Part shown: positions 10,955 to 64,000 of the stretch, piece by piece
Layout: each line of letters opens with the position of its first letter
Numbering within the stretch: position 1 is the stretch's first letter
Source of the DNA: Acidovorax sp. A79
Lineage (GTDB): Bacteria > Pseudomonadota > Gammaproteobacteria > Burkholderiales > Burkholderiaceae_C
Direction of reading: 5' to 3'
DNA: 64,000 nt
Assembly: GCF_041154505.1 (NCBI RefSeq)
Contig: NZ_AP028672.1
Coordinates: 124,001 to 188,000, forward strand
The notes under the pieces: model-generated
Seen by the model: only the letters and a program-made list of their open reading frames with translations
Database searches by the model: none
Told to the model about the DNA's origin: nothing
Program-made: the position numbers and the translations under genes

Positions 10955-11022
10955 ATCAGGTCTTTTGGGGCGCTGGCGCTTTCCCTTCATGCGCCGGAAG
11001 CTATAAAAAACATAGCAAATCA
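10955..11022 (+). repeat. Dispersed palindromic element, copy 1
   Basis: Starts with CAGGT, contains GGCGC (10975-10979) paired with GCGCC (10991-10995), then AGCTAT and the closing ATAGC (GCTAT-N7-ATAGC at 11000-11016). It lies seven bases after the isochorismatase stop. It shares the CAGG / GCGC stem / AGCTAT / ATAGC order with the eight other copies listed here. Confidence 0.7.
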
Positions 11023-11066
11023 GCGGCGCCGAAGCCGGGGGCGCGCCAGCCTCCCATGGGCTCAGG

Positions 11067-12443
11067 TCACAGCCACGGCTTGAGAAGTGTCACCGCGAGC
11101 CCGACCGCCGCGCAGCCGCCGAGCAATGGCAGCACGCCGGCCTTGAAGCGGAACAACGCCACCCCCGCTCCCAGGGCAATCACGGCGGAGATCGCATCGA
11201 ACGCGCCGCCAAAGCCCTGGGGCCACAGCAGGTGGTAGGCAAAGAACAGCGCCAGGTTCAGGATCACGCCCACCACGGCGGCGGTGATGGCGGACAGCGG
11301 CGCGGTGAAGCCCAGCCTGCCATGGGTGGCCTCCACCATGGGGCCGCCGGCCAGGATGAAGATGAACGATGGCAGGAAGGTGACGAAGGTCACCACCACG
11401 GCCGCAGCCGCCGCGCCCGCGAACAGCGCATCGGGCCCCCACACCTGCTGCAGCCAGCCTCCCACGAAACCGACGAAGGCCACCACCATGATGAGCGGAC
11501 CCGGAGTGGTCTCGCCCAGCGCCAGGCCATCGATCATCTGCGGGCCATTGAGCCACTGGTAGTGCTCGACCGCGCCCTGGTACACATAGGGCAGCACGGC
11601 GTAGGCGCCGCCAAACGTCAGCAGCGCGGCCTTGGTGAAGAACCAGCCCATCTGGGTGAGCGTGCCTTCCCAGCCCTGCGTGGCCACCAGCACCGCCATG
11701 GCCGCCAGCCACAGGGCCAGGCCCGCCCCCAGCACCCTGGCCAGGTGGCCGCGCGAGAAGCGGGCGTGCGCCGGTGTCGGGGTGTCGTCGTCGATCAGGG
11801 CCGGGCCGTAGCCCCTGGCCGCGCCCGCATGCCCGCCCCCCAGGGCGAACACCGCCGGCCAGCGCCGGGCACCGAAGTGGCCGATGAGGCCCGCCGCCAG
11901 GACGATGGCGGGGAAGGGGGCGTGGAACGCAAAAATCGCCACGAAGGACGCAGCCGCGATGCCCCACATCCACCGGTTCCTGAGCGCGCGGGTGCCGATG
12001 CGGTGCGCGGCATGCAGCACCAGCGCCGTCACGGCGGGCTTGATGCCAAAGAACACGCCCGCCACCGCCGGCACATCGCCAAAACGCAGGTACACCCACG
12101 ACAGCGCCACCAGAATGAACAGCGAGGGCAGCACGAACAGCGCACCCGCCACGATGCCGCCCCAGGTGCGGTGCATGAGCCAGCCGATGTAGGTCGCCAG
12201 CTGCTGGGCCTCGGGGCCGGGCAGCAGCATGCAGTAGTTGAGCGCGTGCAGAAAGCGCTGTTCGCTGATCCAGCGCCGCCGCTCCACCAGTTCGGTGTGC
12301 ATGATCGCGATCTGTCCGGCGGGCCCGCCAAAGCTGATGAAGCCCAGCTTGAGCCAGAAGCGGAAAGCCTCGGCGAAAGGAACCGGGGCAGGGCTGGTGG
12401 CGGCCGTCTCGTCCGGCGGCGGGGCAGGGTGCGCGGAGGTCAT
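11067..12443 (-). CDS. chrA: Chromate transporter ChrA (two-domain, long-chain)
   Basis: A 458-residue membrane protein with two homologous CHR domains. The first begins FWLKLGFISFGGPAGQIAIM and contains LLPGPEAQQLATYIGW. The second contains FFTKAALLTFGGAYAVLPYV, then LGETTPGPLIMVVAFVGFVG. Duplicated domains are the normal architecture of long ChrA proteins, which export chromate and sometimes take up sulfate analogues. The start MTSAHPA at 12443 is chosen over longer options. No ChrB regulator is adjacent. A long perfect inverted repeat lies 39 bp upstream of the start. Confidence 0.92.
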   Translation of the reverse strand: MTSAHPAPPPDETAATSPAPVPFAEAFRFWLKLGFISFGGPAGQIAIMHTELVERRRWISEQRFLHALNYCMLLPGPEAQQLATYIGWLMHRTWGGIVAGALFVLPSLFILVALSWVYLRFGDVPAVAGVFFGIKPAVTALVLHAAHRIGTRALRNRWMWGIAAASFVAIFAFHAPFPAIVLAAGLIGHFGARRWPAVFALGGGHAGAARGYGPALIDDDTPTPAHARFSRGHLARVLGAGLALWLAAMAVLVATQGWEGTLTQMGWFFTKAALLTFGGAYAVLPYVYQGAVEHYQWLNGPQMIDGLALGETTPGPLIMVVAFVGFVGGWLQQVWGPDALFAGAAAAAVVVTFVTFLPSFIFILAGGPMVEATHGRLGFTAPLSAITAAVVGVILNLALFFAYHLLWPQGFGGAFDAISAVIALGAGVALFRFKAGVLPLLGGCAAVGLAVTLLKPWL

Positions 12444-12481
12444 GGCATGAAAGTTCTGGGCGGGACGTCTCGATGGGGGTT

Positions 12482-12513
12482 GCGCGCTGCATGCGCGAAT
12501 GCATGCAGCGCGC
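12482..12513. promoter_or_regulatory. 13-bp perfect inverted repeat upstream of chrA
   Basis: GCGCGCTGCATGC - GCGAAT - GCATGCAGCGCGC: two perfect 13-bp arms with a 6-bp spacer, ending 39 bp before the chrA start. It has no T tract. Its symmetry suggests a regulator binding site or a structured leader for chrA. Confidence 0.5.
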
Positions 12514-12782
12514 GAGTATCCGCCCAACCCGTGACGGTCCGGGGCCCACCGTTGTTTCCGCGCCGCCATCCGGTGGCGCGCCGTCCCTGCCGCCGAGGGG
12601 TTCTTCCTGCGCCCTGACCCCTGCGCACAGCGGATGGGAGGGGCCTGGATGGGAGGGTGCACAGGGCGTGGCGCGGTGTTCCCTGCCGGTTGCGTCAGTT
12701 TGCCGCAAGCCCGTCATGAATAATTATGAATTCAAAACCTGCCATCCAGGCGGGCCGGAAGAGATGCCGAGGAGACACCACG
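12514..12782. other. Gene-free gap upstream of prpE
   Basis: With the chrA leader this makes a 339-bp gap between divergent chrA and prpE. An AT-rich patch (around CATGAATAATTATGAATTC, 12716-12734) lies in the prpE leader, and GAGGAGA precedes the prpE ATG. I found no convincing sigma-54 or sigma-70 pair. Confidence 0.4.
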
Positions 12783-14678
12783 ATGAGCCGCTACGCCGAT
12801 TTCTACCGCCAGTCCATTGATCACCGCGACGCCTTCTGGGCCGAGCAGGCCCGGCTGATCGACTGGCAGACCCCGCCCCTGCAGGTGTGCGACTACAGCA
12901 ACCCGCCGTTTGCCCGGTGGTTCGTGGGCGGCACCACCAACCTGTGCCACAACGCGGTCGACCGCCACCTCGCCACGCGCGCCAGCCAGCCCGCGCTGGT
13001 GGCCATCTCCACCGAAACCGGCACAGAGCGCAGCTACAGCTTTGCCGAGCTGCACGCCGAGGTGCAGCGCATGGCGGCCGTGCTGCTGTCGCTGGGCGTG
13101 AAGAAGGGCGACCGCGTGCTCATTTACATGCCCATGATCGCCGAGGCGGCGTTCGCCATGCTGGCCTGCGTGCGCATTGGCGCACTGCATTCGGTGGTGT
13201 TTGGCGGTTTTGCCTCGGGCTCGCTGGCCTCGCGCATCGAGGACGCCGAACCCGTGGCCGTGGTCAGCGCCGATGCGGGCTCGCGCGGCGGCAAGGTCGT
13301 GCCCTACAAGCCGCTGCTGGACGAGGCCATCGCGCTCTCCAGGCACAAGCCCGCCGCCGTGCTCATGGTCAACCGGGGCCTGGCGCCGATGCACCTGCAG
13401 CCCGGCCGCGACCACGACTGGGCGCCGCTGCGCGAAAAACACCTGGCCACCGTGGTCCCCTGCGAATGGGTCGAGTCCACGCACCCCAGCTACACGCTCT
13501 ACACCAGCGGCACCACGGGCAAGCCGAAGGGCGTGCAGCGCGACACCGGTGGCTACACGGTGGCGCTGGCGGCCAGCATGAAGCACATCTTTGACGCGAA
13601 GGCGGGGGAGGTGTATTTCGCGACCAGCGACATCGGCTGGGTGGTGGGGCACAGCTACATCATCTACGGCCCGCTCATCGCGGGCATGACCACCATCATG
13701 TATGAGGGCCTGCCCACGCGCCCCGACGCGGGCGTGTGGTGGAGCATTGTCGAGAAGTACCAGGTCACCCACATGTTCTCGGCGCCCACGGCGGTGCGGG
13801 TGCTCAAGAAGCAGGACCCTGCCTACCTGGCCAGATACAGCGTGAAAAGCCTCAAGGCCCTGTGGCTGGCCGGCGAGCCGCTCGATGAGCCCACGGCCCA
13901 GTGGATCAGCGACGCGCTCTCGGTGCCCATCATCGACAACTACTGGCAGACCGAAACCGGCTGGCCCATCCTGACGCTGGCCAATGGCGTGGAACCCCAA
14001 ACCACGCGCTTCGGCAGCCCGGGCAAGGCGATGTACGGCTATGACGTGAAGCTCATCGACGAAGCCACGGGCCAGGAGCTGGCGGGCGAGAACCAGAAGG
14101 GCGTGGTAGCCATCGAGGGCCCGCTGCCCCCCGGCTGCATGCAGACCGTGTGGCGCGACGACGCGCGATTCGTCAACACCTACTGGAAGAGCATCCCTGG
14201 CCGACTGATCTACAGCACCTTCGACTGGGGCATCCGCGATGCCGATGGCTACCACTTCATCCTGGGCCGTACCGACGACGTGATCAACGTCGCGGGCCAC
14301 CGCCTGGGCACGCGCGAGATCGAGGAGAGCATTGCCGCGCACCCCAACATCGCCGAAGTGGCCGTGGTGGGCGTGGCGGATGCGCTCAAGGGCCAGGTGG
14401 CCATGGCCTTTGCCGTGGCCCGCGATGCGAGCGGACTCGACACCGATGCCGCGCGCCTGAAGCTCGAGGGCGAGGTCATGAAGCAGGTGGACAGCCAGCT
14501 GGGTGCCGTGGCGAGGCCCTCGCGCGTGTACTTCGTGAGCGTGCTGCCCAAGACGCGCAGCGGCAAGCTGTTGCGGCGGGCATTGCAGGCGGTGGCCGAG
14601 CGCAGGGATCCGGGAGACCTGACGACGATGGAGGATCCGGCGGCGCTGCAGCAGGTGCGGGAACTGGTGGGGGAGTGA
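12783..14678 (+). CDS. prpE: Propionyl-CoA synthetase PrpE
   Basis: A 631-residue AMP-forming acyl-CoA ligase. It has the ANL motifs YTSGTTGKPKG (phosphate loop), YWQTETGWP (A5), YSTFDWGI and GRTDDVINVAGHRLGTREIE (A8), and the acetylatable Lys in KTRSGKLLRR. The N-terminal RYADFYRQSIDHRDAFWAEQ and length match PrpE rather than acetyl-CoA synthetase. It activates propionate to propionyl-CoA for the methylcitrate cycle, but no prpBCD genes are adjacent. The ATG at 12783 has a GAGGAG site, so I rejected a start 19 codons upstream. Confidence 0.93.
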   Translation: MSRYADFYRQSIDHRDAFWAEQARLIDWQTPPLQVCDYSNPPFARWFVGGTTNLCHNAVDRHLATRASQPALVAISTETGTERSYSFAELHAEVQRMAAVLLSLGVKKGDRVLIYMPMIAEAAFAMLACVRIGALHSVVFGGFASGSLASRIEDAEPVAVVSADAGSRGGKVVPYKPLLDEAIALSRHKPAAVLMVNRGLAPMHLQPGRDHDWAPLREKHLATVVPCEWVESTHPSYTLYTSGTTGKPKGVQRDTGGYTVALAASMKHIFDAKAGEVYFATSDIGWVVGHSYIIYGPLIAGMTTIMYEGLPTRPDAGVWWSIVEKYQVTHMFSAPTAVRVLKKQDPAYLARYSVKSLKALWLAGEPLDEPTAQWISDALSVPIIDNYWQTETGWPILTLANGVEPQTTRFGSPGKAMYGYDVKLIDEATGQELAGENQKGVVAIEGPLPPGCMQTVWRDDARFVNTYWKSIPGRLIYSTFDWGIRDADGYHFILGRTDDVINVAGHRLGTREIEESIAAHPNIAEVAVVGVADALKGQVAMAFAVARDASGLDTDAARLKLEGEVMKQVDSQLGAVARPSRVYFVSVLPKTRSGKLLRRALQAVAERRDPGDLTTMEDPAALQQVRELVGE

Positions 14679-14897
14679 ACGGGCTCGAGGGTTCTTCTGG
14701 GTTGTTTGGGCTGAGCTTGTCGGAGCCTGCTGGGTTTGTGTGCTGATCTGATCGCGTGCCTGATTTGAAGGCGGAGGCCGGGGCGACATCCCGGCTTCCG
14801 CCCCTGCACCCGAGCCGCCTCCCATCAAGGCGCCGCCCCGCTCCAGCTGGCGCTATGCTCGACCATCGCCACTCCTGCGCTTTCCAAGGACCACCCC

Positions 14898-16064: not shown

Positions 16065-16103
16065 TGGGGGGCAGAGTGCACGTGGCAGCAGCATGCCCGG
16101 TGC

Positions 16104-16168
16104 AGTTTGCTATATTTTTAATAGCTTCATGCGCTTGCCTGGAAAGCGCATGCGCGGTTTTTACCTGA
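16104..16168 (-). repeat. Dispersed palindromic element, copy 2 (supplies a stop codon)
   Basis: Read on the minus strand: TTTCAGGTAAAAAC, then a perfect 8-bp stem ATGCGCTT/AAGCGCAT (16129-16151), then AGCTAT and ATAGC (16109-16125). The TAA in CAGGTAA is the stop codon of the PAS/GGDEF/EAL gene, whose last residues SFR lie in the element. Confidence 0.75.
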
Positions 16169-19100
16169 AACTTCCCTGGGCCTGCCGCTGCCAGCCCGAT
16201 GGCAGCTGCCACTGGGCCGCCCAGCCGGTGAAGTCCGCCAGCGGCATGGGCCGCGCGATGCAATAGCCCTGCGCCTGGGTGCAGCCCAGCTGCAGCAGCA
16301 TCTGTCCCTGCTCGATGGTTTCCACGCCTTCGGCGATCACGCGGTAGCCAAACGAGCGCGCCAGGCCGATCACGCCCTGCACGATGGCCAGATCGCCCGG
16401 ATCGCCCATCATGCCGTGCACGAAGCTCTGGTCGATCTTGAGCGTGTCCATGGGCAGACGGCGCAGGTAGGTCAGCGACGAGTAGCCGGTGCCGAAGTCG
16501 TCCAGCGACACCACCACCCCCAGCCCACGCAGCGAGGTCAGGGTGTGCGCCACGGCCGCCAGGTCGTACAGCGCGGCGCTTTCGGTGATCTCGATTTCCA
16601 CCAGGTGCCCGGGCACGCCGGGGTGGCGCGCGATGCACCGGGCCATCCAGTCGGCGAAGTCGGGGCGCTGCAGGTGCTGGGCGGCGATGTTGACGCTCAG
16701 CGGCAGGGCCATGCCGCGCGCCTGCAGCTCCTCCAGGATGGAGAGCGCGGCCTCGACCACCCATTCGCCGAACCCGATCTCCAGCTCGGTCCCCTCCAGC
16801 AGCGGCAGGAATTCGCCGGGCGGCACCAGGCCGCGCTGCGGGTGCTGCCAGCGCGCGAGGGCTTCGGCGCCCACCACGGCGCCGCTTTTCATGTCCACCT
16901 TGGGCTGCAGGTACAGGGTGAACTGGGCATCGGCCAGCGCGTCGCGCAGGTGGCGCCCCTGCGCGCGCAGCAGCTGCAGGGCGCGCTCCTGGGCGGCATC
17001 GAACTGGTGGAAGCGGTTGCGCCCGGCCTGCTTGGCGGCGTACATGGCCTGGTCGGCATGGCGCAGCAGGGCATCGGCATCGGCGTCGTCCTGCGGGAAC
17101 ACCGTGTAGCCGATGCTGGCCGTGACCACCACGCGCTCGGCGTCGAGCGTGTAGGGGGCCGAGATGCTTTCCATCACGCGGTGGAGCATGGCTTCGCAGC
17201 CGTTGGCCGAGTCCAGCCCGGGCATGAGGATCACGAACTCGTCGCCCCCCAGGCGGGCCACGCAGTCGAGCGGGCGCAGCGCGCGCGTAAGCCGGCCGGC
17301 CACCACCACCAGGAGGCGGTCGCCCGCGCCGTGGCCCAGCCGGTCGTTCACGGGCTTGAAGCCGTCCAGGTCCAGGTAGGCCACGCCCAGCTGCGTGCCG
17401 TTTGCACGCGCCTGGTCCATGCATTCCTGCAGCTTGCGCGCCAGCAGCACGCGGTTGGGCAGGCCGGTGAGGGCATCGAACAGCGCCAGCCGCTGCAGCA
17501 GCACTTCCTGTTCGCGCTGGGGCGTCACGTCGATCGCCACGCCCAGCATGCGTTCGGGGCGGCCCATGGCGTCAAGGCCGACGATCTTGCCCAGGTTGCG
17601 CACCCAGCGGACGGCATCGTCGCCGGCCTCGCTCTGGTTGACGCGCCAGGTGGCGTCAAACGGCGTGCCGGGGTGGGCGGTGTGGCGGGCGACCTCGGTG
17701 GTGATGCGGTCGATGTCGTCGGGGGCGATGCCGCTGGTCCACTGCGTGGCGCCGAAGGGGCCCTGCGATGCGGGCAGGCCGCGCATCGCGCGCCAGCGGC
17801 TGTCCCCCGTGACGGTGCCGGTCTGCAGGTTCCAGTCCCACAGGCCCAGCGACGCGGCCGAGATGGTGAGCGAGAGCAGCGCCTCGCGTTCGCGCACCTG
17901 CTCTTCCTCGCGCTTGCGGTCGGTGATGTCGTGCACCGAGAACAGCCAGCAGGGTTCGCCGTCGAATTCGGTCGCCCGCATGGACTGCAGCACGGTGCGC
18001 GGCGGGCCGCCGCGCACGTTCAGCTTCACCTCGTAGCTGTTGAGCTGGCCGGAGCGCGCCACCGCATCCATGAGGCGCTGGCGGTCGTCGGCGGTGAAGA
18101 TGCCCAGCTCGATGGCGGTGCGGCCGATGGCCTCCTCGCGCGGGATGCCCAGCATCTCCACCCAGGCGGGGTTGATGTCCACGTAGCGCCCGTCCATGCG
18201 GCGCGACAGGCCCATGGGGTAGGGCATGAGGTGAAAGATGCGCGAGAAGCGCTCCTCGGACTGGCGCAGGCGCTGCTCGGCGCGCTTGGCCTCGTCGATG
18301 TCCTGCATCACGCCGCGCACGCGGGTGACCCGGCCGTTCTCGATGACGGGCTCGCCCCGCGCGCGCACCCAGACCAACCGCCCGTCAGTGTGCAGCACCT
18401 CCATCTCCATGCTCCACTCGGCGCGCTCGAGGATGCTCTGGCGGAAACGGTCGCGCAGGGGTTCCCGGTAGGCGGGGGCCACGTGGCGGTCGATGTAGTC
18501 GTGCGGCAGCGGGGAGCCAGGCGCCAGGCCATGGATGTCGAAGCACACGTCCGACCAGTAGACCAGGCCCTTGCCGCGCTCGTCCTCCCAGGCGCCCAGA
18601 CGGGCCAGGCGGCCCGCTTGCTGCAGCAGGCTGTTGAGGGCGCGCAGTTCGTCGCTGGCGCGGTGGGCTTCGGTCATGTCGTGGAAAACGAAGACAAAAC
18701 AGTTTTCGCCATCCACAAGCACGGAGCGTGCCGACATCAGCCCCGGTATGCGGATTCCGTCGCGCTGGGCCACCAGGGGCAGGCGGTCGACCTTGCCCTC
18801 GCGGCGGAAGGTGTCCACCAGCCGTGCGCGCTCCTGCTCGGAGGCCCAGATCTTCAGCTCGGAGGACGTGCGCCCGATCACCTCGTCGCGCGGGCGGCCC
18901 AGCACCTCGCAAAAGGCAGGGTTCACGTCGATGTAGCGCCCATCGGAGATGCGCGAGATGCCCGCGGGATCGGGGAGCGTCTGGTAGAAGGTGGTGTACT
19001 TGGCCTCCGAGGAGCGCAGAGCGTCCTCCACCTCGCGGTGGGCCGTGATGTCCACGTCCATGCCGATCAGGCTGAGCGGGCGCCCGCCCGCATCGCGGCG

Positions 19101-21680: not shown

Positions 21681-21697
21681 GGGGAATCTCGGTGATT

Positions 21698-21762
21698 TTG
21701 AATAAAACAGGCCGCCAGCGCTTGCTGGATCAGCGCGAAAAGCTATTGTTTTGATAGTGTTT
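21698..21762 (+). repeat. Dispersed palindromic element, copy 3 (supplies a stop codon)
   Basis: AAAACAGGC, CCAGCGCTTGCTGG, CAGCGC, AGCTAT, GATAG order as in the other copies. On the opposite strand the CTA of AGCTAT (21743-21745) is the TAG stop of the Ada/AlkA gene, and the last seven codons (PETLSKQ) come from the element. Confidence 0.72.
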
Positions 21763-23332
21763 CAGGCGCCGGGATGGCGGGCTCCGCCGTGCCCGCCGCC
21801 CAGGCGCGCAGCACCGCATAGCTGCGCCACGGGCGCCACGCCTCGGACGCCGCGCTGGCGGCGCGCGCCGGGTTTTTCTGGCCCTGGACACCCAGCGCCT
21901 TGTGCAGCGCCACGTCGGCGGCAGGGAAGGCATCGGGCCAGCGCAGCACGCGCATGGCGATGTACTGCGCCGTCCAGTCGCCAATGCCGGGCAGGGCGCA
22001 CAGGGCGGCCGTGGTGGCGGCCACATCGGCGCCGGCATGCAGGGCCAGGCCCCCGCTGTCCACGGCGCGGGCCAGCGCCACGATGGCGGCCTGGCGCTGG
22101 CGCACGATGCCCAGCTGGCCCAGGGTGTCGCCGTCGGCCACGGCGAGCGTGGCGGCCGTGGGAAACAGCCGGTTCAGCCCGGGCCAGGGCGTGGCGATGG
22201 GCTCGCCCAGCCGCTCCACCAGCCGCTGCCCCAGCGTGCGCGCGGCCGCCACGGTGATCTGCTGGCCCAGCACGGCGCGCACGGCCAGCTCGAAGCCGTC
22301 GAACGCACCGGGCACGCGCAGGCCGTCGCCGCCCGGGAAGTGCGGGTGCAGCACGGCGTTGATGGCCGCCGGGTCGGCGTCCAGGTCCAGCATGGCGCGC
22401 ACGCGGCGGATCACGAGCGGCAGCACCGGGTACAGGCTGTCGCTGGTCTGCAGCAGCACCTGGTGGCGGGCCACGTCGAAGCGCGCGCTGAACCAGCCGG
22501 TGGTCTCCTGCGCCATGCCGGTGCAGGCGGGCGGCAGGCGCACGGTGCGGCGCAGCGTGGCCTCTTGGGGCAGCACCCATTCGACGCCGTGGAACTGCCG
22601 CCGCTCGAAGAACGCGAGCAGCGCCGCCACGTCGAAGGGCGGGCGCCAGGCCAGGCGCAAGGTGCTGCCGGTGCCGGACGCGTCCGCCTTGAGGGGGCCC
22701 GCGCCGCTGCGCCGCAGCTGGGTGGGATTGAGCCCGTAGTGCCCCGCGAACGCCGCATTGAAGCGCCGCACGCTCGCGAAGCCGCTGGCCAGCGCCACCT
22801 GCGTGACCGGCATCGGGGTGTCGGTGAGCAGCTGCTTGGCCGTGAGCAGCCGCCGGGTCTGCAGGTACTGCAGGGGCGACACGCCCAGCGCGGCCTCGAA
22901 GATGCGGCGAAGGTGGCGGTCGCTCACGCCCAGGCGTTCGGCCAGCCGGGCGACGGTGGCGCCGCTGTCGCCCCGCGTGGGCCGGGCCGGCCAGAGGTCG
23001 GGCGCATCCAGCAGCCGCACGGCCTGCTGCACCAGGATGCCGCTGGCATCCTGCACCGACCACACCAGCGCCTGCGGCGCCAGCTCCGGCCGGCAGCGCA
23101 GGCAGGGCCTGAAGCCCGCGCTCTCGGCCTGGGCGGCAAGGCTGAAGAAGCGGCAGTTCTCGCGGCGCGGCGTGCGCACGGCGCACACCGGGCGGCAGTA
23201 GATGCCGGTGGAGGTCACGCCGGTGAAGAAGCGTCCGTCAAAGCGCGCGTCCCGGGCCAGCACGGCGAGATAGCGGCCCTCGTCCGAGGCCATGTCGGTG
23301 TCCGTGGAGGAGGGCAGGTGGGGCGAGGTCAT
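21743..23332 (-). CDS. alkA: Ada-type zinc domain / AraC / AlkA glycosylase fusion
   Basis: A 529-residue three-part protein. Residues 20-85 are the Ada metal domain with Cys46, Cys50, Cys77 and Cys80 (IYCRPVC and RPCLRC), where Cys46 is the expected methyl-phosphotriester acceptor. Residues 110-215 are an AraC helix-turn-helix (RLAERLGVSDRHLRRIFEAA, GFASVRRFNAAF). The rest is an AlkA N-domain plus a helix-hairpin-helix glycosylase (LPGIGDWTAQYIAMR from about 447; catalytic Asp473 in FPAADVAL). It probably senses methylated DNA, activates its own operon and excises 3-methyladenine. Ogt and an EamA transporter follow. The C-terminal tail derives from a dispersed repeat. Confidence 0.93.
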   Translation of the reverse strand: MTSPHLPSSTDTDMASDEGRYLAVLARDARFDGRFFTGVTSTGIYCRPVCAVRTPRRENCRFFSLAAQAESAGFRPCLRCRPELAPQALVWSVQDASGILVQQAVRLLDAPDLWPARPTRGDSGATVARLAERLGVSDRHLRRIFEAALGVSPLQYLQTRRLLTAKQLLTDTPMPVTQVALASGFASVRRFNAAFAGHYGLNPTQLRRSGAGPLKADASGTGSTLRLAWRPPFDVAALLAFFERRQFHGVEWVLPQEATLRRTVRLPPACTGMAQETTGWFSARFDVARHQVLLQTSDSLYPVLPLVIRRVRAMLDLDADPAAINAVLHPHFPGGDGLRVPGAFDGFELAVRAVLGQQITVAAARTLGQRLVERLGEPIATPWPGLNRLFPTAATLAVADGDTLGQLGIVRQRQAAIVALARAVDSGGLALHAGADVAATTAALCALPGIGDWTAQYIAMRVLRWPDAFPAADVALHKALGVQGQKNPARAASAASEAWRPWRSYAVLRAWAAGTAEPAIPAPETLSKQ

Positions 23333-24865: not shown

Positions 24866-24940
24866 GCCGGGCGCGATGATGCCCGCACGGCGCATTCGCC
24901 CCGCCGAACTTTCCCTGACCCTTTCGCCCATCCGCCGACC

Positions 24941-25726: not shown

Positions 25727-27084
25727 ACGCCGCGCGGGCCCTGTATTCGCTGGTGACCTGGTGCGCGCAGCCGCTGCTGCGCCGCAAGCTGCGCCGCCGC
25801 GCGGTGGCCGAGCCCGGCTATGGGCATGCGGTGGGCGAGCGGTTTGGCCGCTACCCGGCGCCCATGGACAGCCTCATGCCGCACAGCAGCTCCGACCCGC
25901 TCGGCCGCTTTGTCTGGATCCATGCCGTATCCCTGGGCGAAACCCGCGCCGCCGGCATCCTGCTCGGGCAGCTGCGCGAACAGCTGCCGGGCATGCGCCT
26001 GCTGCTCACCCACGGCACGGCCACGGGGCGGGCCGAGGGCGAACGGCTGCTGCACCCCGGTGACGTGCAGGTGTGGCAACCGTGGGATACGCCGGGCGCG
26101 GTCGCACGTTTCCTGCGCAAGTTCCGCCCGGCCATCGGCATCCTCATGGAGACGGAGGTCTGGCCCAACCTGGTGGCCGGCTGCCAGCGGCGCGGCGTGC
26201 CCCTGGTGCTGGCCAATGCGCGCTTCAACGCCACGTCGCTGCGCAAGGCCCAGCGGCTGGCGCCGCTGGCGCGCCCGGCCTATGGCGGCCTGGCCGCCGT
26301 CTGGGCCCAGACCGAGGACGACGCGGCCCGCCTGCGGGCCATCGGCGCCCCGGTGCGCGGCGTGTTTGGCAACCTCAAGTTCGATGTGGTGCCCGACGCC
26401 GCCCAGACCGCCCAGGGCCGCGCCTGGCGCGCGCGCGCGGGACGCCCCGTGGTCCTGCTGGCCAGCAGCCGTGAGGGCGAGGAGGCGATGTGGCTGGAAA
26501 ATTTCAGGCAAAAACAGGCTCCAGCGCTTGCTGACAAAGCGCCAGCAGCTATCAATAGCGAAGCAGGTAACGTGCAGTGGCTCATCGTGCCGCGCCACCC
26601 GCAGCGTTTTGACGAGGTGCACCAGCTGCTCCAGCGCGCCGGGCTCGGCGTGTCGCGCCGCAGCACCTGGGCGGCCGGGCCCGAGGCGGCCGATGTGTGG
26701 CTGGGCGATTCGCTGGGCGAGATGGCGCTGTACTACGGCCTGGCCGACGTGGCCTTGCTGGGGGGCAGCTTTGCGCCGCTGGGCGGCCAGAACCTCATCG
26801 AGGCCGCCGCTGGCGGGTGCCCGGTGGTGCTGGGGCCGCACACCTTCAATTTTGCGGAGGCGGCCGAGCTGGCCTGCGCGGCGGGCGCCGCGCAGCGCGT
26901 GCCCGACATGGCCGCCGGCATCGCGTGCGCTGCGGCGCTGGCACTGGACGCCAGCCGCCAGCGGGCCGCCAGCGAACGTGCGGGCCGTTTCGCCAGCGAC
27001 CACCGCGGGGCCGCGCTGGCAACGGCCCGGGCGGTGCGCGCGATCGTGCAGCCCGCCGGGGCTTCCCTGTCTCCCTCTACTTGA
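25723..27084 (+). CDS. waaA: 3-deoxy-D-manno-octulosonic acid (Kdo) transferase WaaA, with a repeat-encoded insert
   Basis: A 453-residue GT30 transferase that adds Kdo to lipid A on the inner face of the inner membrane. The N-terminal GERFGRYPAP and WIHAVSLGETRAAGILL, and the C-terminal GGSFAPLGGQNLIEAAA with GPHTFNF, are family hallmarks. Residues of about 258-281 (NFRQKQAPALADKAPAAINS) are not typical. They come from a dispersed palindromic element inserted in frame in the loop before VPRHPQRFDEV. It starts inside the stop of the amidase gene and overlaps the end of the convergent tolC-type gene by 8 bp. Confidence 0.92.
   Translation: MNAARALYSLVTWCAQPLLRRKLRRRAVAEPGYGHAVGERFGRYPAPMDSLMPHSSSDPLGRFVWIHAVSLGETRAAGILLGQLREQLPGMRLLLTHGTATGRAEGERLLHPGDVQVWQPWDTPGAVARFLRKFRPAIGILMETEVWPNLVAGCQRRGVPLVLANARFNATSLRKAQRLAPLARPAYGGLAAVWAQTEDDAARLRAIGAPVRGVFGNLKFDVVPDAAQTAQGRAWRARAGRPVVLLASSREGEEAMWLENFRQKQAPALADKAPAAINSEAGNVQWLIVPRHPQRFDEVHQLLQRAGLGVSRRSTWAAGPEAADVWLGDSLGEMALYYGLADVALLGGSFAPLGGQNLIEAAAGGCPVVLGPHTFNFAEAAELACAAGAAQRVPDMAAGIACAAALALDASRQRAASERAGRFASDHRGAALATARAVRAIVQPAGASLSPST
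26501..26567 (+). repeat. Dispersed palindromic element, copy 4 (inside waaA)
   Basis: TTTCAGGCAAAAACAGGC, CCAGCGCTT, AAAGCGCCAGCAGCTAT and ATAGC in the standard order. It is translated as part of WaaA. The triplet that is a TAA stop in copy 2 (CAGGTAA) is CAA here, so the reading frame passes through. Confidence 0.78.
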
Positions 27085-38019: not shown

Positions 38020-38696
38020 TCCGCACCCGGGGCCTTTCCTATGCCTACCCCGGCGGCGACGCGCCGCTGCGCTTCCCCGATGTGGATCTGCGCCAGGGCG
38101 GCACGCTGCTGCTGCGGGGGCGCTCGGGCACCGGCAAGTCCACCTGGCTGTCGCTCATCGCCGGCCTGCGGGGTGCCAGCGGCGGCGATCTGTTCGTGGC
38201 GGGCACCCAGCTGGGCACGCAGCGGGGCGCCGAGATTGACGCCTGGCGCGCGCGCAGCATCGGCTTTTTGCCGCAGAAGCTGTACCTCTCCAGCGCGCTC
38301 ACGGTGGCCGACAATCTGGCGCTGGTCTACTTTGCCGCCGGGCTGCCGCGCGACGATGCCGCCATCACCCGTGCCTTGGCGCAGGTGGGCGTGGCCGAAC
38401 TCGCCACGCGCCGGCCGCACCAGCTCTCGGGCGGGCAGGCGCAGCGCGTCGCGCTGGCGCGGGCCGTGCTGCTGTCGCCCGAGCTGCTGCTGGCCGACGA
38501 GCCCACGGCCAGCCTGGACGACGAGGCCGCCGCCGATGCGCTGGACTTGCTGCGGCAAAGCGCCGCCGCCTGCGATGCCAGCCTGGTGATTGCCACGCAC
38601 GACCAGCGCGTGGTGCAGGCCCTGGCCAGCGCGCAGATGCTGGATTTGAACGAAATTGGCCCCGGGCGCTTGCAGGACAAGCGCGAAAAGCTATGA
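38016..38696 (+). CDS. ABC transporter ATPase (LolD/MacB type) of the zinc cluster
   Basis: A 226-residue ATPase with Walker A LRGRSGTGKST (residues 33-43), signature LSGGQAQRVALARA, Walker B LLLADEPTASLDDE and the H-loop ATHDQR. The family (LolD/MacB) works with FtsX-like permeases, and one is encoded next. The C-terminal residues LQDKREKL come from a dispersed palindromic element. Its start overlaps the Fur-family gene (ATGA), and its stop overlaps the permease start (ATGA), so all three are coupled. Confidence 0.9.
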   Translation: MIRTRGLSYAYPGGDAPLRFPDVDLRQGGTLLLRGRSGTGKSTWLSLIAGLRGASGGDLFVAGTQLGTQRGAEIDAWRARSIGFLPQKLYLSSALTVADNLALVYFAAGLPRDDAAITRALAQVGVAELATRRPHQLSGGQAQRVALARAVLLSPELLLADEPTASLDDEAAADALDLLRQSAAACDASLVIATHDQRVVQALASAQMLDLNEIGPGRLQDKREKL

Positions 38697-38710
38697 ATTC
38701 AGTAGCAATC
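38654..38710 (+). repeat. Dispersed palindromic element, copy 5 (forms an ATPase/permease junction)
   Basis: GGGCGCTTGCAGGACAAGCGC, then AGCTATGAATTCAGTAGCA. The sequence AGCTATGAATTC holds both the ATPase stop (TGA, 38694-38696) and the permease start (ATG, 38693-38695), so the translational coupling lies inside the repeat. Confidence 0.68.
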
Positions 38711-39931
38711 AAGCTGGCCCGCCTGTCCTGGCGCTACCTGTGGTCGCGCCCCCTGGCGGCCGTGCTCAACCTGCTGGTGCTCACGCTGGGCCTGGCGGCC
38801 ATCACGCTGGTGCTGCTGGTGGCCACGCAGCTGGACAAGGCGTTCGAGCGCGACCTCGCGGGCATCGACCTCGTGGTGGGCGCCAAGGGCAGCCCGCTGC
38901 AGCTCATCCTGGCGGGGGTGTTCCACATCGACGTGCCCACGGGCAACATTCCGCTGCAGGAGGTGCAGGCGCTGCAGAAGAACCCGCTGGTGGCGCAGGT
39001 CATCCCGCTCAGCCTGGGCGACAGCTACCAGGGTTTTCGCATTGTGGGCACCACGCCCGACTACGTGGCGCACTACGAGGCCGCGCTGGCCGAAGGCGCG
39101 CTGTGGCGCCAGCCCATGGATGCGGTGCTGGGCGCCACCGTGGCGCGCGGCATTGTCAGGGCCGGCCATGGCGGTGCGCCGCTGGTGGGCGCCACCTTTG
39201 TGGGCAGCCACGGGCTGGGCGGGGGAGGGCACGCGCACGGTGACCACCCCTACCGCGTGAGCGGCGTGCTGGCGCCTTGCGGCTGCGTGCTCGACCGGCT
39301 CATCCTCACCAGCACCGAATCCGTCTGGATGGTGCACGAGAGCGCCATGGCCACCGATGACGAGGACCTGGAACTGCTGAAGGACGACCGCGAGGTCACC
39401 GTGGCCCTGGTGCGCTACCGCACGCCGCTCGCCGCCGTCACGCTGCCACGCCGGATCAATGCCGACACGGGCATGCAGGCGGCCGCGCCCGCCATCGAGG
39501 TCACGCGCCTGCTGCGCCTGCTGGGCGTGGGCGCCGATGTGCTGCGCGCCTTTGGCGGCGTGCTGCTGGCCGTGGCGGCCCTCAGCGTGTTCATCGCGCT
39601 GTGGAACGCGGTGCGCGAACGCCGCGCCGACCTGGCCATGCTGCGCATGCTGGGCGCGCCGCCGGGCCGCGTGGCCGGGCTGGTGCTGTGGGAGGCCCTG
39701 TGGCTGGCCGCCATGGCCTGCGCCCTGGGCCTGCTGCTGGGCCACGGCCTGGCCCACGCGCTGGGCTGGGCACTGCAGGCACAGGGCCTGCTGCCCGTCA
39801 GCGGCCTGGTGTGGCTGCCCGCGGAGGCCGGCGTGCCGCTGCTGGCCGCCGGCGTGGCGGCCCTGGCGGCGTTGCTGCCAGCGATGCAGGCCTACCGCAC
39901 CGAGGTCGCGGACCTGCTGAGCCAACCCTGA
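38693..39931 (+). CDS. FtsX-like permease with a His-rich periplasmic loop
   Basis: A 412-residue membrane protein. One N-terminal helix (AAVLNLLVLTLGLAAITLVL) is followed by a long periplasmic domain and three C-terminal helices (FGGVLLAVAALSVFIALW, MLRMLGAPPGRVAGLVLWEA, GVPLLAAGVAALAALLPA). This is the FtsX/MacB layout. A loop at residues 173-185 carries four His (GSHGLGGGGHAHGDH), followed by CGC at 196-198, suggesting metal binding. Similar ABC permeases occur beside zinc-regulated genes, for example in Vibrio zrg-type loci. Its first codons MNSVAIK come from a dispersed repeat. Confidence 0.87.
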   Translation: MNSVAIKLARLSWRYLWSRPLAAVLNLLVLTLGLAAITLVLLVATQLDKAFERDLAGIDLVVGAKGSPLQLILAGVFHIDVPTGNIPLQEVQALQKNPLVAQVIPLSLGDSYQGFRIVGTTPDYVAHYEAALAEGALWRQPMDAVLGATVARGIVRAGHGGAPLVGATFVGSHGLGGGGHAHGDHPYRVSGVLAPCGCVLDRLILTSTESVWMVHESAMATDDEDLELLKDDREVTVALVRYRTPLAAVTLPRRINADTGMQAAAPAIEVTRLLRLLGVGADVLRAFGGVLLAVAALSVFIALWNAVRERRADLAMLRMLGAPPGRVAGLVLWEALWLAAMACALGLLLGHGLAHALGWALQAQGLLPVSGLVWLPAEAGVPLLAAGVAALAALLPAMQAYRTEVADLLSQP

Positions 39932-41705: not shown

Positions 41706-41773
41706 TACATCAAAACTCCTGATTTCATAGCTGCCAGCGCTTGACCATCAAGCGCTGGAGGCATTTTTTATTC
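41706..41773 (-). repeat. Dispersed palindromic element, copy 6 (hairpin upstream of znuD)
   Basis: On the plus strand CCAGCGCTTGA (41734-41744) pairs perfectly with TCAAGCGCTGG (41748-41758) around a 3-base loop, the best stem of the family. ATAGC is at 41728-41732 and AGGCATTTTTTATT follows. The stem plus T-run could terminate or attenuate transcription before znuD. Confidence 0.78.
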
Positions 41774-41857
41774 ATGGCTTCCCGCCCCGTGGCGTGAAGC
41801 CGCGCGCTGCACGCCTGGCCTGGCCGGCGCGGCGCGCCCCCTGTTGCAAGCATCACC

Positions 41858-51992: not shown

Positions 51993-52578
51993 AGCGTGTC
52001 GGGGACAATTGCCTGCGAGGCTGTCGCATGGCTTGCCTTCCTCATCCCCTTCTGGTTTTCGGTGGTTTCGCTGGGGTGCTTCCAGCGTGGAACCAGGGGG
52101 GGTTACTGCTGGTCGATGTGCTGCCTCCGATGGAGGCCGGCAATCGAACATGTTTTTGGACTTCTGCGCCTGTTCATCAAGCGCTGGCAGCTATCGTAAA
52201 TATAGCAATCGATGACATCCCGGCCTCGCGTTGACCGTGGCAGGCCTTGACGGATGGGGCACGCTTGGCGCCAGCCAACCCAAGGGGCCTTGCCTTGATC
52301 AGGACGAAAAACGGGCTCTCCAGAGCTTGGCGCGCTGGCACCTGAACACCAGCACGTCAGCGACGAATTCAAAGATGCCGGTTAGAAGACCGGTCACGGT
52401 GCCTGGAGCAAAGGCGGGTCAAGCGGGATACGCCGGGCCCGGATCCAGGGCGCAACCGCGCGGCCCGCACGGGTAACATGCTGAGGCGCCGAGGCTGGCA
52501 TGGGCGGCGCTTGGCGCAGTCAAGGGGGGACCCAGTGCCCGGGACGGCGCAACGTGCTCACCAACCGTGGAAACCAAA
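51993..52578. other. Gene-poor gap with a dispersed repeat
   Basis: A 586-bp stretch with no convincing gene. It holds dispersed element copy 7 (52152-52212). On the minus strand at about 52303-52410 a short frame reads VTGLLTGIFEFVADVLVF, which looks membrane-like but has no ribosome site and too little length to call. The rest shows nothing recognisable. Confidence 0.5.
52152..52212 (+). repeat. Dispersed palindromic element, copy 7
   Basis: CTGCGCCTGTTCATCAAGCGC, then GGCAGCTAT-cgtaaat-ATAGC (GCTAT at 52190-52194, ATAGC at 52202-52206). Located in the gap downstream of the GGDEF gene. Confidence 0.68.
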
Positions 52579-57226: not shown

Positions 57227-57233
57227 GCGCACG

Positions 57234-57926: not shown

Positions 57927-57951
57927 GCGCGGGCGCGGGCCCCTGGCCTTG

Positions 57952-58494: not shown

Positions 58495-58595
58495 GGACGC
58501 AGGGGGCAGGGCGGTGTTCCAGAATACAGGAGGGCGCCAGGCCCGGCGGGCGGGTCCGCGCAGACGGACGCTGCCTTGCACGCGCATTGAATCAG

Positions 58596-58653
58596 TCCAA
58601 AATGCCATCTGGCGCCATATCCGCCTGCGCCGCCAGCTATCGAAAATATAGCA
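58596..58653 (+). repeat. Dispersed palindromic element, copy 8
   Basis: CAAAATGCC, CTGGCGCC, CTGCGCC, CCAGCTAT-cgaaaat-ATAGCA in the standard order (GCTAT at 58635-58639, ATAGC at 58647-58651). It lies between the DUF1697 and AEC-transporter genes. Confidence 0.72.
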
Positions 58654-58722
58654 CCCCGGAGCCAGGGCCCCGCCGGCCAGGCGCACAATACGCGCCCACC
58701 TGTCCGCCGTTGGTTTCTGATC

Positions 58723-59694: not shown

Positions 59695-59727
59695 ACGCGG
59701 CCTGCGAAGGCGATCGGGCGCGGTGGC

Positions 59728-60123: not shown

Positions 60124-60164
60124 GCTGCTCCTTGTCGGTGCTGGTGCCGCCGGGCAGGAAACGT

Positions 60165-60803: not shown

Positions 60804-60858
60804 GGGCACGATTGTGCACGCCGGTTTTGTGGCGTCGCGGGGCCTTCCGTGGCCCCGG

Positions 60859-60887
60859 TTGTTGCCGAATGAATATTCGCTTATATT
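60859..60887 (+). promoter_or_regulatory. Promoter and operator of the TetR gene
   Basis: A -35 TTGTTG (60859-60864), 17-bp spacer and -10 TATATT (60882-60887) sit just before the TetR start. The spacer contains GAATGAATATTC (60867-60878), whose core GAATATTC is palindromic, a standard TetR operator position. Confidence 0.6.
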
Positions 60888-60896
60888 GGCACACCG

Positions 60897-61469
60897 ATGA
60901 AACCCAAAGACGACGAAAAACAGCGCGCCATTGCCCAGGCCACCTTCGAGCTGGTGGCCCAGACGGGCCTGAGCGGCCTGACCCTGGCCGACATCGCCCG
61001 CGCGGCGGGCATTGCCACCAGCACGCTGTATGTGTATTACCCGTCCAAGGATGAACTCATCAGCCAGCTCTACCAGGATGCCAAGACGGTCACGGCCGCG
61101 CGCATCATGGAAGGCATCGCGCCCGGCATGCCCTACCGAGCCCGCGTGCGGCGTGCTTGGGGCAACCTGCTGCGGCACCGGCTGGACCAGTATGCCGAAG
61201 TGGTGTTCCAGGAGCAGTACTACAACTCGCCCTGGTTCACCGATGGGAACCGCGAATTCTCGACCCGCCTGATGGCCGGTTTTTTTGCGTTGATGGAAGA
61301 GGGCCAGCAGCAAGAAATATTGAAGGCCGTGCCGATCCCGCTGCTCACGGCCAGCCTGGTGGGGTCGGTGCGCGAGACGGGCAACCTGATCCGCACCAAG
61401 GTGCTGCCCGACGAAGACGCCGTGCACCAGATGGCTTTTGGCCTGTGCTGGGACGCCTTAAAGGCCTGA
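60897..61469 (+). CDS. TetR/AcrR-family regulator of the molybdoenzyme operon
   Basis: A 190-residue repressor: DNA-binding domain [20 protein letters not shown] then [20 protein letters not shown], and a C-terminal ligand domain with Tyr/Trp-rich [17 protein letters not shown]. It is divergent from pdxH and faces the iorAB-like genes 182 bp downstream. Its promoter carries a 12-mer almost identical to one in the molybdoenzyme promoter, so it probably controls both. Confidence 0.92.
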
Positions 61470-61517
61470 GCGGGAGACAGCGATGCTTTTTTGCCGCCCG
61501 GGGTTGATCTTTTAATC

Positions 61518-61529
61518 GAATTTATATTC
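61518..61529. promoter_or_regulatory. Second copy of the TetR operator-like 12-mer
   Basis: GAATTTATATTC, upstream of the iorA-like gene, matches GAATGAATATTC of the TetR promoter at 10 of 12 positions. Its halves GAAT and ATTC are perfectly inverted. The region is AT rich, as expected for a promoter. Confidence 0.5.
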
Positions 61530-61651
61530 TCTTAAAAATGCCACGCACCACGCTCCAACCCCTTCATGGCCGATGGCGTCGCTGACGCCGCCCCCTGTCT
61601 CCTTGACCGCGCCCGCAACACAACAACACCTTCCCCACGGAGAACCCCGCG

Positions 61652-62113
61652 ATGCCCACCCTCAACATCAATGGCAAAGACACGGCTGTGGATGCCGATG
61701 AATCCACCCCCATCCTCTGGGCCCTGCGCGACACGCTGGGCATGACCGGCACCAAGTTCGGCTGCGGCCAGGCCTTGTGCGGGGCCTGCACGGTGCACCT
61801 GAACGGCGCGCCGGTGCGCTCGTGCATCACGCCGATCTCGGCCGCTGCGGGGCAGAAGATCACCACCATCGAGGCCGTCACGGCCAGCGACAAGGTGGGT
61901 AAGGCCGTGCACGCCGCCTGGGTGAAGCACGACGTGGCGCAATGCGGCTACTGCCAGAGCGGCCAGATCATGAGCGCCACCGCCTTGCTCAAGGGCAAGA
62001 AGAAGCCGAGCGACGCCGACATCGACGCCGCCATGTCGGGCAATGTGTGCCGCTGCGGCACCTATGTGCGCATTCGCGCGGCCATCCATGACGCTGCCAA
62101 GACCCTGGCTTGA
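61652..62113 (+). CDS. (2Fe-2S)-binding small subunit of an isoquinoline 1-oxidoreductase-type enzyme
   Basis: A 153-residue iron-sulfur subunit. The plant-ferredoxin-type cluster is held by Cys38, 43, 46 and 58 ([18 protein letters not shown]), and the second cluster by Cys98, 101, 133 and 135 ([17 protein letters not shown]). It passes electrons from the molybdenum site of the large subunit encoded next. The family oxidises aldehydes or N-heterocycles. GGAG lies 11 nt before the ATG. Confidence 0.94.
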
Positions 62114-62128
62114 TTGAAGGAGAACACC

Positions 62129-64000
62129 ATGCACTTCGACGCACAGGCCCTGCAGGGCCAGGCCCATGTTTTCATGCCAAAACACCTTCTGGCGCTTATG
62201 GATAAAGCGCAAGCAGCTACCAATTCAGGAGTAAACGATGCAATGGAAGGCATCGGAGGTCTCGCACGGCGCACCTTCCTCAAGGTGTCGGCGGCTTCGG
62301 GCTTTGCCCTGGGCGCGTTTCCGCTGGTGGCCACAGCGCAGGGCGCCGGGGCCGCCGCCGCACCCGCAGGCCTCAAGCCGTTCGAGCAGCCTTCAGCCTT
62401 TGTCCGCATCGACGCCGATGGCACGGTCACCGTCACCATCAACCGCCTGGACTTTGGCCAGGGCGTGCAGACAGGCCTGCCCATGATCCTGGCCGAGGAG
62501 CTGGACGCCGACTGGAGCAAGGTGCGCAGCGTGCACGGCGATGCCAACCAGGCCTATGCCGACCCGATGATGGGCATGCACCTCACGGGCGGCTCCAACT
62601 CCATCAAGAACTCGTACACCCAGTACCGCGAGCTGGGCGCCCGCACCCGCGCCATGCTGGTCTCGGCCGCCGCGGCGCAGTGGGGCGTGGATGCCTCGGC
62701 ACTGCGCGCCAGCAATGGCTTCGTCGTCGGCCCTGGCGGCAAGAAGCTGGGCTACGGCGCGCTGGCCGAAGCGGCCATGAAGCAGCCCGTGCCCGAAAAG
62801 GTCACCCTGAAGGACCCCAAGCAGTTCCGCCTCATCGGCAAGCCCACCGGGCGGCTCGATGCCAAGGCCAAGTCGAGCGGCCAGCAGGACTACGGCATCG
62901 ACGTGCGCCTGCCCGGCATGCTGACGGCCGTGGTGGCCCGCCCGCCCGTGTTTGGCGCCAAGCTGAAGTCGCTGGACGACAGCGCCGCCAAGGCCATCAA
63001 GGGCGTGAAGGCCGTGCTGCGCGTGCCCACCGACCGGGGCGGCGAGGGCGTGGCCATCGTGGCCGATGGTTACTGGCCCGCCAAGCAAGGGCGCGATGCG
63101 CTGAAGGTGGAATGGGACACCAGCGCGGTGGGCAAGCCCGACACCACGGCACTGCTGGCGCAGTACCGCGAGCTGGCCGCCAAGCCCGGCAACGTGGCCA
63201 TGCAGGCCAACATGGCGCCGCTGGCGGGTGCACCCCACAAGATCAGCGCCGAGTTCGTCTTCCCGTATCTGGCGCACGCGCCCATGGAACCGCTCAACTG
63301 CACGGTGAAGCTCGATGGCGATAAGGCCGAGCTATGGATGGGCACGCAGATGCCCGGCCTGGACGCCATGGCCGCCGCCAAAACCCTGGGCCTGCAGCCG
63401 CAGAACATCAAGGTGAACACGCAGATGGCCGGTGGCGGCTTTGGCCGCCGCGCCATCCCCACCAGCGACTACGTGGTGGAGGCCTGCGGCGTGGCCAAGG
63501 CCGCGCGCACGGCGGGCATCACCGCACCGTTGCGCACCCTGTGGAGCCGCGAGGACGACATCAAGGGCGGCTACTACCGCCCCATGCACGTACACCGCGC
63601 CGAAATCGGGTTCGACGCACAGGGCAAGATCCTGGCGTGGGACCACACCATCGTCGGTCAGTCCATCACCAAGGGTTCGCCGTTCGAGGCCTTCATGGTC
63701 AAGAACGGCATCGACGCCACGACCACCGAAGGCATGGGCGAGCCCTACAACGTGCCCATGAAGCTGTCGGTGCACCACCCCGACGTGAACGTGCCCGTGC
63801 TGTGGTGGCGCAGCGTGGGCTCCACCCACACGGCCTACGCCATGGAAACCCTCATCGACGAAGTGGCGCGCACCACGAAGCAAGACCCCGTGGCCTACCG
63901 CATGGCCCTGATGGGCGACAAGCACCCGCGCCACAAGGCCGCGCTGCAGCTGGCCGTGGCCCAGTCGGGCTACGGCAGGAAGAAGCTGGCGGCCGGCCGC
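62129..64000 (+). CDS. Molybdopterin-binding large subunit (isoquinoline 1-oxidoreductase beta type), partial
   Basis: The frame from ATG 62129 (AAGGAG six bases upstream) is open for 624 codons to the window edge; about 110 more would be expected. A Tat signal, GLARRTFLKVSAASGFALGA, begins at about residue 44, so the enzyme is probably exported folded. Later motifs include FVRIDADGTVTVTINRLDFG, QTGLPMILAEELDADW, VFPYLAHAPMEPLNCTV, QMAGGGFGRRAIPTSDYVVE and VLWWRSVGSTHTAYAMET. Residues of about 16-37 come from a dispersed repeat. An alternative ATG at 62243, with AGGAG upstream, would give a normal 20-residue Tat leader, so the true start is uncertain. Confidence 0.9.
   Translation, partial: MHFDAQALQGQAHVFMPKHLLALMDKAQAATNSGVNDAMEGIGGLARRTFLKVSAASGFALGAFPLVATAQGAGAAAAPAGLKPFEQPSAFVRIDADGTVTVTINRLDFGQGVQTGLPMILAEELDADWSKVRSVHGDANQAYADPMMGMHLTGGSNSIKNSYTQYRELGARTRAMLVSAAAAQWGVDASALRASNGFVVGPGGKKLGYGALAEAAMKQPVPEKVTLKDPKQFRLIGKPTGRLDAKAKSSGQQDYGIDVRLPGMLTAVVARPPVFGAKLKSLDDSAAKAIKGVKAVLRVPTDRGGEGVAIVADGYWPAKQGRDALKVEWDTSAVGKPDTTALLAQYRELAAKPGNVAMQANMAPLAGAPHKISAEFVFPYLAHAPMEPLNCTVKLDGDKAELWMGTQMPGLDAMAAAKTLGLQPQNIKVNTQMAGGGFGRRAIPTSDYVVEACGVAKAARTAGITAPLRTLWSREDDIKGGYYRPMHVHRAEIGFDAQGKILAWDHTIVGQSITKGSPFEAFMVKNGIDATTTEGMGEPYNVPMKLSVHHPDVNVPVLWWRSVGSTHTAYAMETLIDEVARTTKQDPVAYRMALMGDKHPRHKAALQLAVAQSGYGRKKLAAGR
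62174..62236 (+). repeat. Dispersed palindromic element, copy 9 (in the leader of the molybdoenzyme gene)
   Basis: TGCCAAAACACC, CTGGCGCTTATGGATAAAGCGC, AAGCAGCTACCAATTCAGGAG. It resembles copy 6 read on the minus strand (TGCCTCCAGCGCTTG, CAGCTATGAAATCAGGAG). The AGGAG at its end (62227-62231) lies at a Shine-Dalgarno distance (11 nt) from the ATG at 62243, so the element may supply a ribosome binding site. Confidence 0.72.

Follow-up and report, generated by a model that had tools for sequence, protein, structure and literature searches.

Nine copies of a composite repeat in a 64-kb window

We analysed a 64-kb stretch of the Acidovorax sp. A79 genome (GCF_041154505.1, NZ_AP028672.1 positions 124,001-188,000; this whole stretch is called the window, and its coordinates are used below), for which an original prediction had described nine segments of a dispersed palindromic element. 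All nine were recovered at the predicted positions, seven on the plus strand and two, at 16104 and 41706, on the minus strand. The copies, c1 to c9, and the genes around them are as follows.

c1, 10951..11023, plus strand: begins directly behind the plus-strand gene 10343-10948, whose stop codon is at 10946-10948
c2, 16102..16174, minus strand: the end (16161) of a minus-strand GGDEF/EAL gene falls within the copy
c3, 21693..21765, plus strand: AGCTAT provides the TAG stop of a minus-strand AlkA-like glycosylase gene, 21743-23332
c4, 26499..26571, plus strand: in frame within waaA (25723-27084), reading ENFRQKQAPALADKAPAAINSEAG
c5, 38641..38713, plus strand: an ABC-transporter ATPase gene (38016-38696) stops within the copy, and the next, permease-like gene starts there (38693)
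c6, 41708..41780, minus strand: intergenic by gene calls; AGGAGT terminates the 3' arm
c7, 52141..52213, plus strand: intergenic, behind gene 50337-51992
c8, 58587..58659, plus strand: intergenic, upstream of an auxin-efflux-carrier-like gene, 58723-59694
c9, 62167..62239, plus strand: ahead of the RRTFLK motif, in an open frame that begins at ATG 62129 and continues in phase into a molybdenum oxidoreductase gene

The segments had been described as not explained by any gene. That description does not suit c4, which lies in waaA, c9, which lies in an open frame, or c2, c3 and c5, which include stop or start codons. At c9, the gene caller puts the start of the oxidoreductase gene at 62243, after the copy. 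The permease-like gene apparently starts inside c5, where its ATG at 38693 overlaps the stop of the preceding gene (in AGCTATGA). The best protein match of the waaA product, at 98%, is from an unclassified Acidovorax.

The copies belong to a repeat family with a unit of about 65 bp and the layout TTTnnGAATnAAAA-nGGCnnCCA-GCGCTTG-n5-CAAGCGC-n4-AGCTAT-n7-RTAGC. In 119 core-aligned copies from other public genomes, information extends from about -23 to +42 relative to the first GCGC. The motifs keep the order that had been proposed, and their spacing is fixed: GCGC-N4-AGCTAT-N7-ATAGC has 115 matches in the 5.87-Mb genome and none in the reversed control, AGCTAT-N7-ATAGC has 142 matches vs one, and a spacer of 6 in place of 4 in the exact pattern leaves a single match. 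The predicted excess over shuffled sequence was likewise observed. GCGC-N4-AGCTAT with at most one mismatch matches 14 times in the window, all nine copies included, vs 4.9 times in shuffles, and none of 100 shuffles reaches 14. A covariance model trained on 37 copies scored the nine window copies at 49-70 bits; the next window match, at 19.7 bits, is the opposite strand of one copy, and this gap between copies and background is overstated because the nine copies were themselves members of the training set. Length is exactly 73 bases in all but five of the 150 covariance-model matches listed, and element GC is mostly 0.33-0.60. No Rfam family matched the window at the gathering threshold.

We estimated copy number with an ungapped profile, trained in part on the sampled stretches, in 380 kb of the genome, made up of 19 stretches of 20 kb at even spacing (the stretch within the window excluded). 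Forty copies scored at least 8 bits, 39 of them at least 30 bits, and the reversed control gave none; full-length matches in this sample reach down to about 22 bits. Extrapolated to the genome, this corresponds to about 600 copies, roughly one per 10 kb, in answer to the copy-number question that the prediction had raised. Over 1.244 Mb of the genome, part of which was chosen partly for known copies, we collected 173 copies of at least 14 bits (control 0), including an overlapping pair, 502562/502608, that may be one element. Two copies at stretch edges were excluded from the set of 171 used for genomic context.

Placement was assessed against gene calls from a codon-usage script rather than a curated annotation. 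Tandem gene pairs flank 91 of the 171 copies, convergent pairs 43 and divergent pairs 8; the other 29 are inside genes. Per kb of intergenic DNA this amounts to 1.4 copies between convergent, 0.87 between tandem and 0.21 between divergent genes, and a stop codon lies within 50 bp of 117 of the 142 intergenic copies. There is no transcription bias, with 46 tandem-gene copies running in the same direction as the genes and 45 in the opposite one. Same-strand copies inside genes are in codon phase 0 in 14 of 16 cases, often reading like QKQxxALxxQAxAAIxxxA; the 13 on the opposite strand include eight in phase 1 and five in phase 0. GC skew places the replication origin near 3.03 Mb and the terminus near 0.25 Mb. 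A replication-strand orientation rule, hinted at by the exact-pattern copies, was dropped after the whole set of 171 showed no fork bias (85 vs 86); 149 of the 150 listed covariance-model matches split 78 to 71. We note that weak copies (39 and 19 bits) occur within the first codons of a gene in two relatives (G422:C22 near 193806, and G414 at the site of window 8989-9262), where the A79 genome has no copy.

The original prediction of a dispersed, oriented, REP-like family in Comamonadaceae holds for the A79 genome and named relatives, in which the strict pattern occurs. It was present in 8 of 399 sampled genomes of the order: 6 of the 12 sampled members of the same family (1-130 copies) and two single matches elsewhere. 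Among the matches listed are Acidovorax, Paracidovorax, Simplicispira, Ottowia, Giesbergeria, Comamonas, Ramlibacter and vaguely named metagenome assemblies. In a genus sample of 40 genomes, 39 carry at least one strict copy, with a range of 0-213 per genome.

Shared positions, lineage spellings and near-absence in four genomes

We compared element sites between A79 (G000) and its relatives, which are given as G-numbers where they must be told apart; G399 belongs to the same species. Stretches of 24 genus relatives contain 139 copies, from which we dropped 29 without a mapped flank and 17 with one flank or inconsistent mapping. Ninety of the remaining 93 both-flank copies (nine of them from G399, and one copy counted twice) are at sites that are filled in A79, and three are at sites empty in A79. 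Recent mobility was thus not seen among the 93 mappable copies. No base-exact empty site, from which the target-site duplication of a MITE could be read, was found among the loci inspected, the three sites empty in A79 being too diverged for base-exact borders or a target duplication.

Within the window, other-species orthologues were aligned for c3 (18) and c4 (19), and 14 orthologues each for c5 and c6. The c9 site is filled in seven other species, six of which were aligned, with G406 (18.9 bits) excluded. The c1 site is filled in G402, G405, G414 and G399, that of c2 in G414 and G399 (both flanks mapped), and that of c8 in G402, G406, G421, G422 and G399; both flanks of c7 map solely in G399. 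Family information and orthologue divergence are negatively correlated, with Spearman coefficients of -0.65 at c3 (19 sequences), -0.54 at c4 (20) and -0.56 at c6 (15). Columns 24, 25, 38 and 39 (GC and AG) are invariant in 82 aligned sequences.

In the alignments of c3-c6 and c9, the left half of the element varies by lineage at shared loci. TGCGCGC occupies it in G408, G411, G412 and G418, in 3 of 4 covered genomes at c3, 3 of 4 at c4 and 3 of 3 at c6. In G406 and G422 the corresponding spelling is ACCGC at c3, c4 and c5, and at most of c3-c6 the left halves in G402 and G416 are AAGCGCTAGTG-like. The right halves, which are specific to each locus, are largely retained, such as GCTATCAATAGTGAAGC at c4 and GCTATGAAATCAGGAG at c6.

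We then counted each spelling, followed by N17-AGCTAT, across the 40 genus genomes, with reversed controls at 0-1 per genome and strand. TGCGCGC was found 108 times in G408, 77 in G411, 95 in G412, 67 in G418 and 63 in G437, and 0-3 times in the other 35 genomes. ACCGCTT was found 154 times in G406, 140 in G422, 41 in G414 and 22 in G415, and 0-15 times elsewhere. AGCGCTT occurs 156 times in A79 and up to 397 times elsewhere, but has 13-22 copies in the five genomes of the TGCGCGC dialect; G406 and G422 have 21-22. These dialects follow a one-gene tree, in which G408, G411, G412 and G418 group with a support of 0.99 and G406 and G422 with 1.0; G437 is not one of the genomes in the tree. Judging from the few loci aligned, most dialect copies genome-wide probably lie at shared sites.

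Four genus genomes, G400, G403, G429 and G430, nearly lack the known spellings, with 0-1 AGCGCTT copies and 0-2 strict copies each. Profile scans gave no match of at least 30 bits and eight between 4 and 27 bits over 260 kb of G400, and two matches, of 28 and 9 bits, over 160 kb of G430. At the c4 site, no profile match was found in G400 (best -19) or G403 (best -56); by eye, the edges in G400 still resemble the element and enclose a core that is shorter by about 5 bp, and in G403 the site is a stretch of 51 bases without the element. At the c3 site, neither genome shows an element trace. The one-gene tree places G400, with weak support, among element-bearing lineages.

A candidate duplex recognition site and its rivals

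The prediction had also stated that the stem varies while pairing is kept. The GCGC/GCGC stem is conserved, and its flanks show no covariation. Stem cells pair in 81.9% vs 80.7% in shuffles (sd 0.9), a value that 49 of 500 shuffles reach; two lesser measures, further pair types and the covariation score, are reached by 9 and 16 of 500. In 173 copies, no stem pair exceeds z = 2. At z < -3, folding surpasses that of shuffles in only 2 of the nine window copies. Pairing without covariation does not sustain the claim of a compensated stem, and a covarying RNA or single-stranded DNA hairpin finds no support in the pairing, covariation and folding tests.

The same copies contain features of a different kind. 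The left tract (-13 to -11) reads AAA in 103 copies and TTT in 21, and is mixed A/T in 10 vs 63 expected; at the right tract (+31 to +33) the counts are 53, 29 and 74 vs 120 expected. The loop occurs in both orientations, TCCAT in 14 copies and its reverse complement ATGGA in 9, and the loop reverse-complement score is 386 vs 102 (sd 15) in column shuffles. A protein that reads duplex DNA, and is indifferent to the strand of an A-run and to the orientation of a palindromic core, would leave uniform tracts and a two-way loop, so the all-A or all-T tracts and the two loop orientations appear to fit a site read as duplex. We also observed near-symmetric copies with AGCTAT on both sides, in which both strands match (G421:C12:80704/80713, G421:C22:190245/190254 and G422:C1:268543/268552).

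Sites that stay in place over ages while their spelling changes in step across a lineage suggest that a protein reads the element. We tentatively favor, at slightly less than an even chance, a host-maintained family of dispersed duplex recognition sites, placed like REPs, with a lineage-shifting left half and a putative reader. Such a reader would be a sequence-specific protein, acting as a dimer or complex, that senses by indirect read-out two A-tracts, set about 43 bp from each other around the dyad GCGCTTG-n5-CAAGCGC, and makes a constant right-hand contact at GCTAT...AG. If its left-half specificity shifted in a lineage, hundreds of sites would follow by mutation and selection; if the reader, or the need for it, were lost, copies would erode. 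Its role would likely be architectural, or lie in termination, repair or supercoiling behind genes, and the original spread of the family was probably via an ancient mobile element. The further-reaching claim, that, lineage by lineage, hundreds of dispersed chromosomal sites respell one half of their recognition sequence together and without moving, under a shifting putative DNA-binding protein, with erosion of sites in natural losses, is possible, and we put it forward with more doubt than conviction.

Several observations weigh against a maintained recognition site. The correlations at c5 (15 sequences, p 0.08) and c9 (7, p 0.09) are only -0.21 and not significant alone, and coding constraint may contribute at c3, c4, c5 and c9, which are partly coding, so that some of the constraint there may be at the protein level; c6 is intergenic by gene calls. 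The dialects are incomplete: TGCGCGC is missing from c5 and c9 in the TGCGCGC genomes, and ACCGC from c6 in G406 and G422. TGCGCGC-dialect copies in G411 and G408 form groups with a common spacer and right arm, e.g. TGCCTTTTAAGCTAT, a hint of subfamilies or of copying from site to site. Uniformity is only weak in the right A/T tract, and the exact-pattern copies are biased in their orientation relative to the fork (69 vs 31, in the first 100 of 115). A GCCAT...ATGGC motif recurs in a few of the weak G400 matches, which could represent a divergent dialect rather than decay; the iterated motif has a control match, and palindromes escape the reversed control. The four bases at offsets 36-39 are ATAG in 88 and GTAG in 29 of 173 A79 copies, recalling the GTAG tag of REPs; this RTAG end can pair with GCTAT, and GGAG, GAAG and AGAG are also seen there. 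The reader protein itself is putative.

The chief rival is a long-resident, REP/REPIN-like non-autonomous mobile family that stays near a master sequence through slow transposition, or through cutting and conversion at copies already in place, with a RAYT-like Y1 transposase serving it and the dialects as successive masters. As the prediction had said, the window contains no RAYT gene: the only PF01797 match of the genome is at C1:4327940, and its score against NF047646 (REP-associated tyrosine transposase), 66 bits, falls short of the cut-off of 80. This RAYT-like gene (L177:1444-2160, G000:C1 about 4.328 Mb) has no element copies beside it, and it has relatives in nearly all genus genomes; PF01797 matches are found in 37 of the 40, mostly one per genome at 33-50 bits. 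The proposed check for an association with such genes came out negative. Eleven PF01797 loci of about 3.3 kb, comprising seven RAYT-like loci (L177, L242-L247) and four short high-scoring matches of another type (L238-L241), contain no element copy, and about two would be expected by density in the seven RAYT-like ones. The gene is also kept in G400, G403, G429 and G430 despite their lack of known spellings, and positions that are common across species, right halves that mostly stay specific to their locus as the left half is respelled, and a hairpin without covariation all speak against this rival. On the other side stand the PF01797 matches in most genus genomes, the RTAG end, the shared-spacer subfamilies and the strongly varying number of strict copies. 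Excerpts of PMC3733652 describe REPs as 20-40 bp units, downstream of genes and sometimes inside them, with an unpaired GTAG or CGTC at one end, and thus a placement like that of our family; they add that the inverted repeats on the flanks of RAYT genes may be unrelated ones, so a lack of adjacent copies does not decide the matter. According to an excerpt of PMC8049555, REPIN populations persist over long times. With its RTAG end, its REP-like placement and RAYT genes that sometimes sit beside unrelated repeats, this rival stays serious, and we regard it as less likely than not.

Two further explanations appear weaker. An RNA-level element, namely a terminator or an mRNA-stabilising or processing hairpin in 3' untranslated regions, would suit the location behind stop codons and between convergent genes, and some copies do take part in terminator-like structures: c2 and c4 on the strand opposite the element (18 sites vs 7.4 in shuffles in a scan of 10001-30000), and c8 through its edge, which serves as the T-tail of a minus-strand site at 58668-58653 (14 vs 11.2 in a scan of 44001-64000). 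The family nevertheless has no orientation preference and no covariation, few copies fold well, some 5-9 bases separate the main stem from the start of T-runs, and genes contain 29 of 171 copies; we consider this explanation improbable. A sign maintained by biased DNA uptake and recombination seems more improbable still. It would account for lineage dialects around a fixed core, which excerpts of PMC3630211 describe for the DNA uptake sequences (DUS) of Neisseriaceae together with a length of 10-12 bp, thousands of copies and a reader, ComP. The Acidovorax element resembles these in being a dispersed sign with dialects and a fixed core, but it is about 65 bp long, numbers about 600 copies at about one per 10 kb, has a putative reader, is placed at gene ends and has a composite structure of fixed spacing.

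Overall, the interpretation offered in the original prediction is partly supported. REP-like repeats are usually seen as selfish DNA with a transposase, and the Acidovorax family is instead position-stable, column-constrained at several loci and respelled by lineage genome-wide. If the further-reaching claim of change in concert is right, the family would be a bacterial case of genome-wide co-evolution of reader and sites, with natural losses where sites erode. It becomes possible to ask which factor reads repeats of this type and in what way a specificity change is followed at hundreds of sites, and the four genomes nearly without known spellings offer natural loss cases for locating the reader gene.

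Comparison with known repeat families

Rickettsia palindromic elements (RPE) are palindromic repeats found in frame inside protein genes. The Acidovorax family differs from them in taxa, sequence and length, and only 29 of its 171 copies are in genes. Like REPs and REPINs, it consists of imperfect palindromes that are scattered by the hundred behind genes and in part inside them, in a genome with a RAYT-like gene. It differs from them in its unit of about 65 bp, set against the 20-40 bp given in the PMC3733652 excerpts, in its fixed composite layout with two A/T tracts, in the absence of copies beside RAYT-like genes (seven loci) and of a covarying hairpin, and in positions common across species with a dialect shift at shared sites.

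The BRE repeats of Hot et al. (2011) are another dispersed betaproteobacterial family that includes Acidovorax and is intergenic, partly overlapping or inside genes (excerpts of PMC3110155). Those excerpts give a full length of 75-91 bp, an average GC of 69% in Bordetella, some tandem copies and no more than 29 copies in a genome. BRE is rejected as the identity of our family by its length, GC and copy number, a distinction that is drawn from the description in the excerpts and not from the letters.

A description of the family was not found among the listed titles and abstract beginnings of the open PMC papers searched, and the words Acidovorax, Delftia and Comamonas had no match inside PMC3733652, PMC12306157 or PMC2817692. 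Finally, we observed the core in 74 contig stretches from IMG/VR (L308-L381), a count in which proviruses and host carry-over are treated alike.

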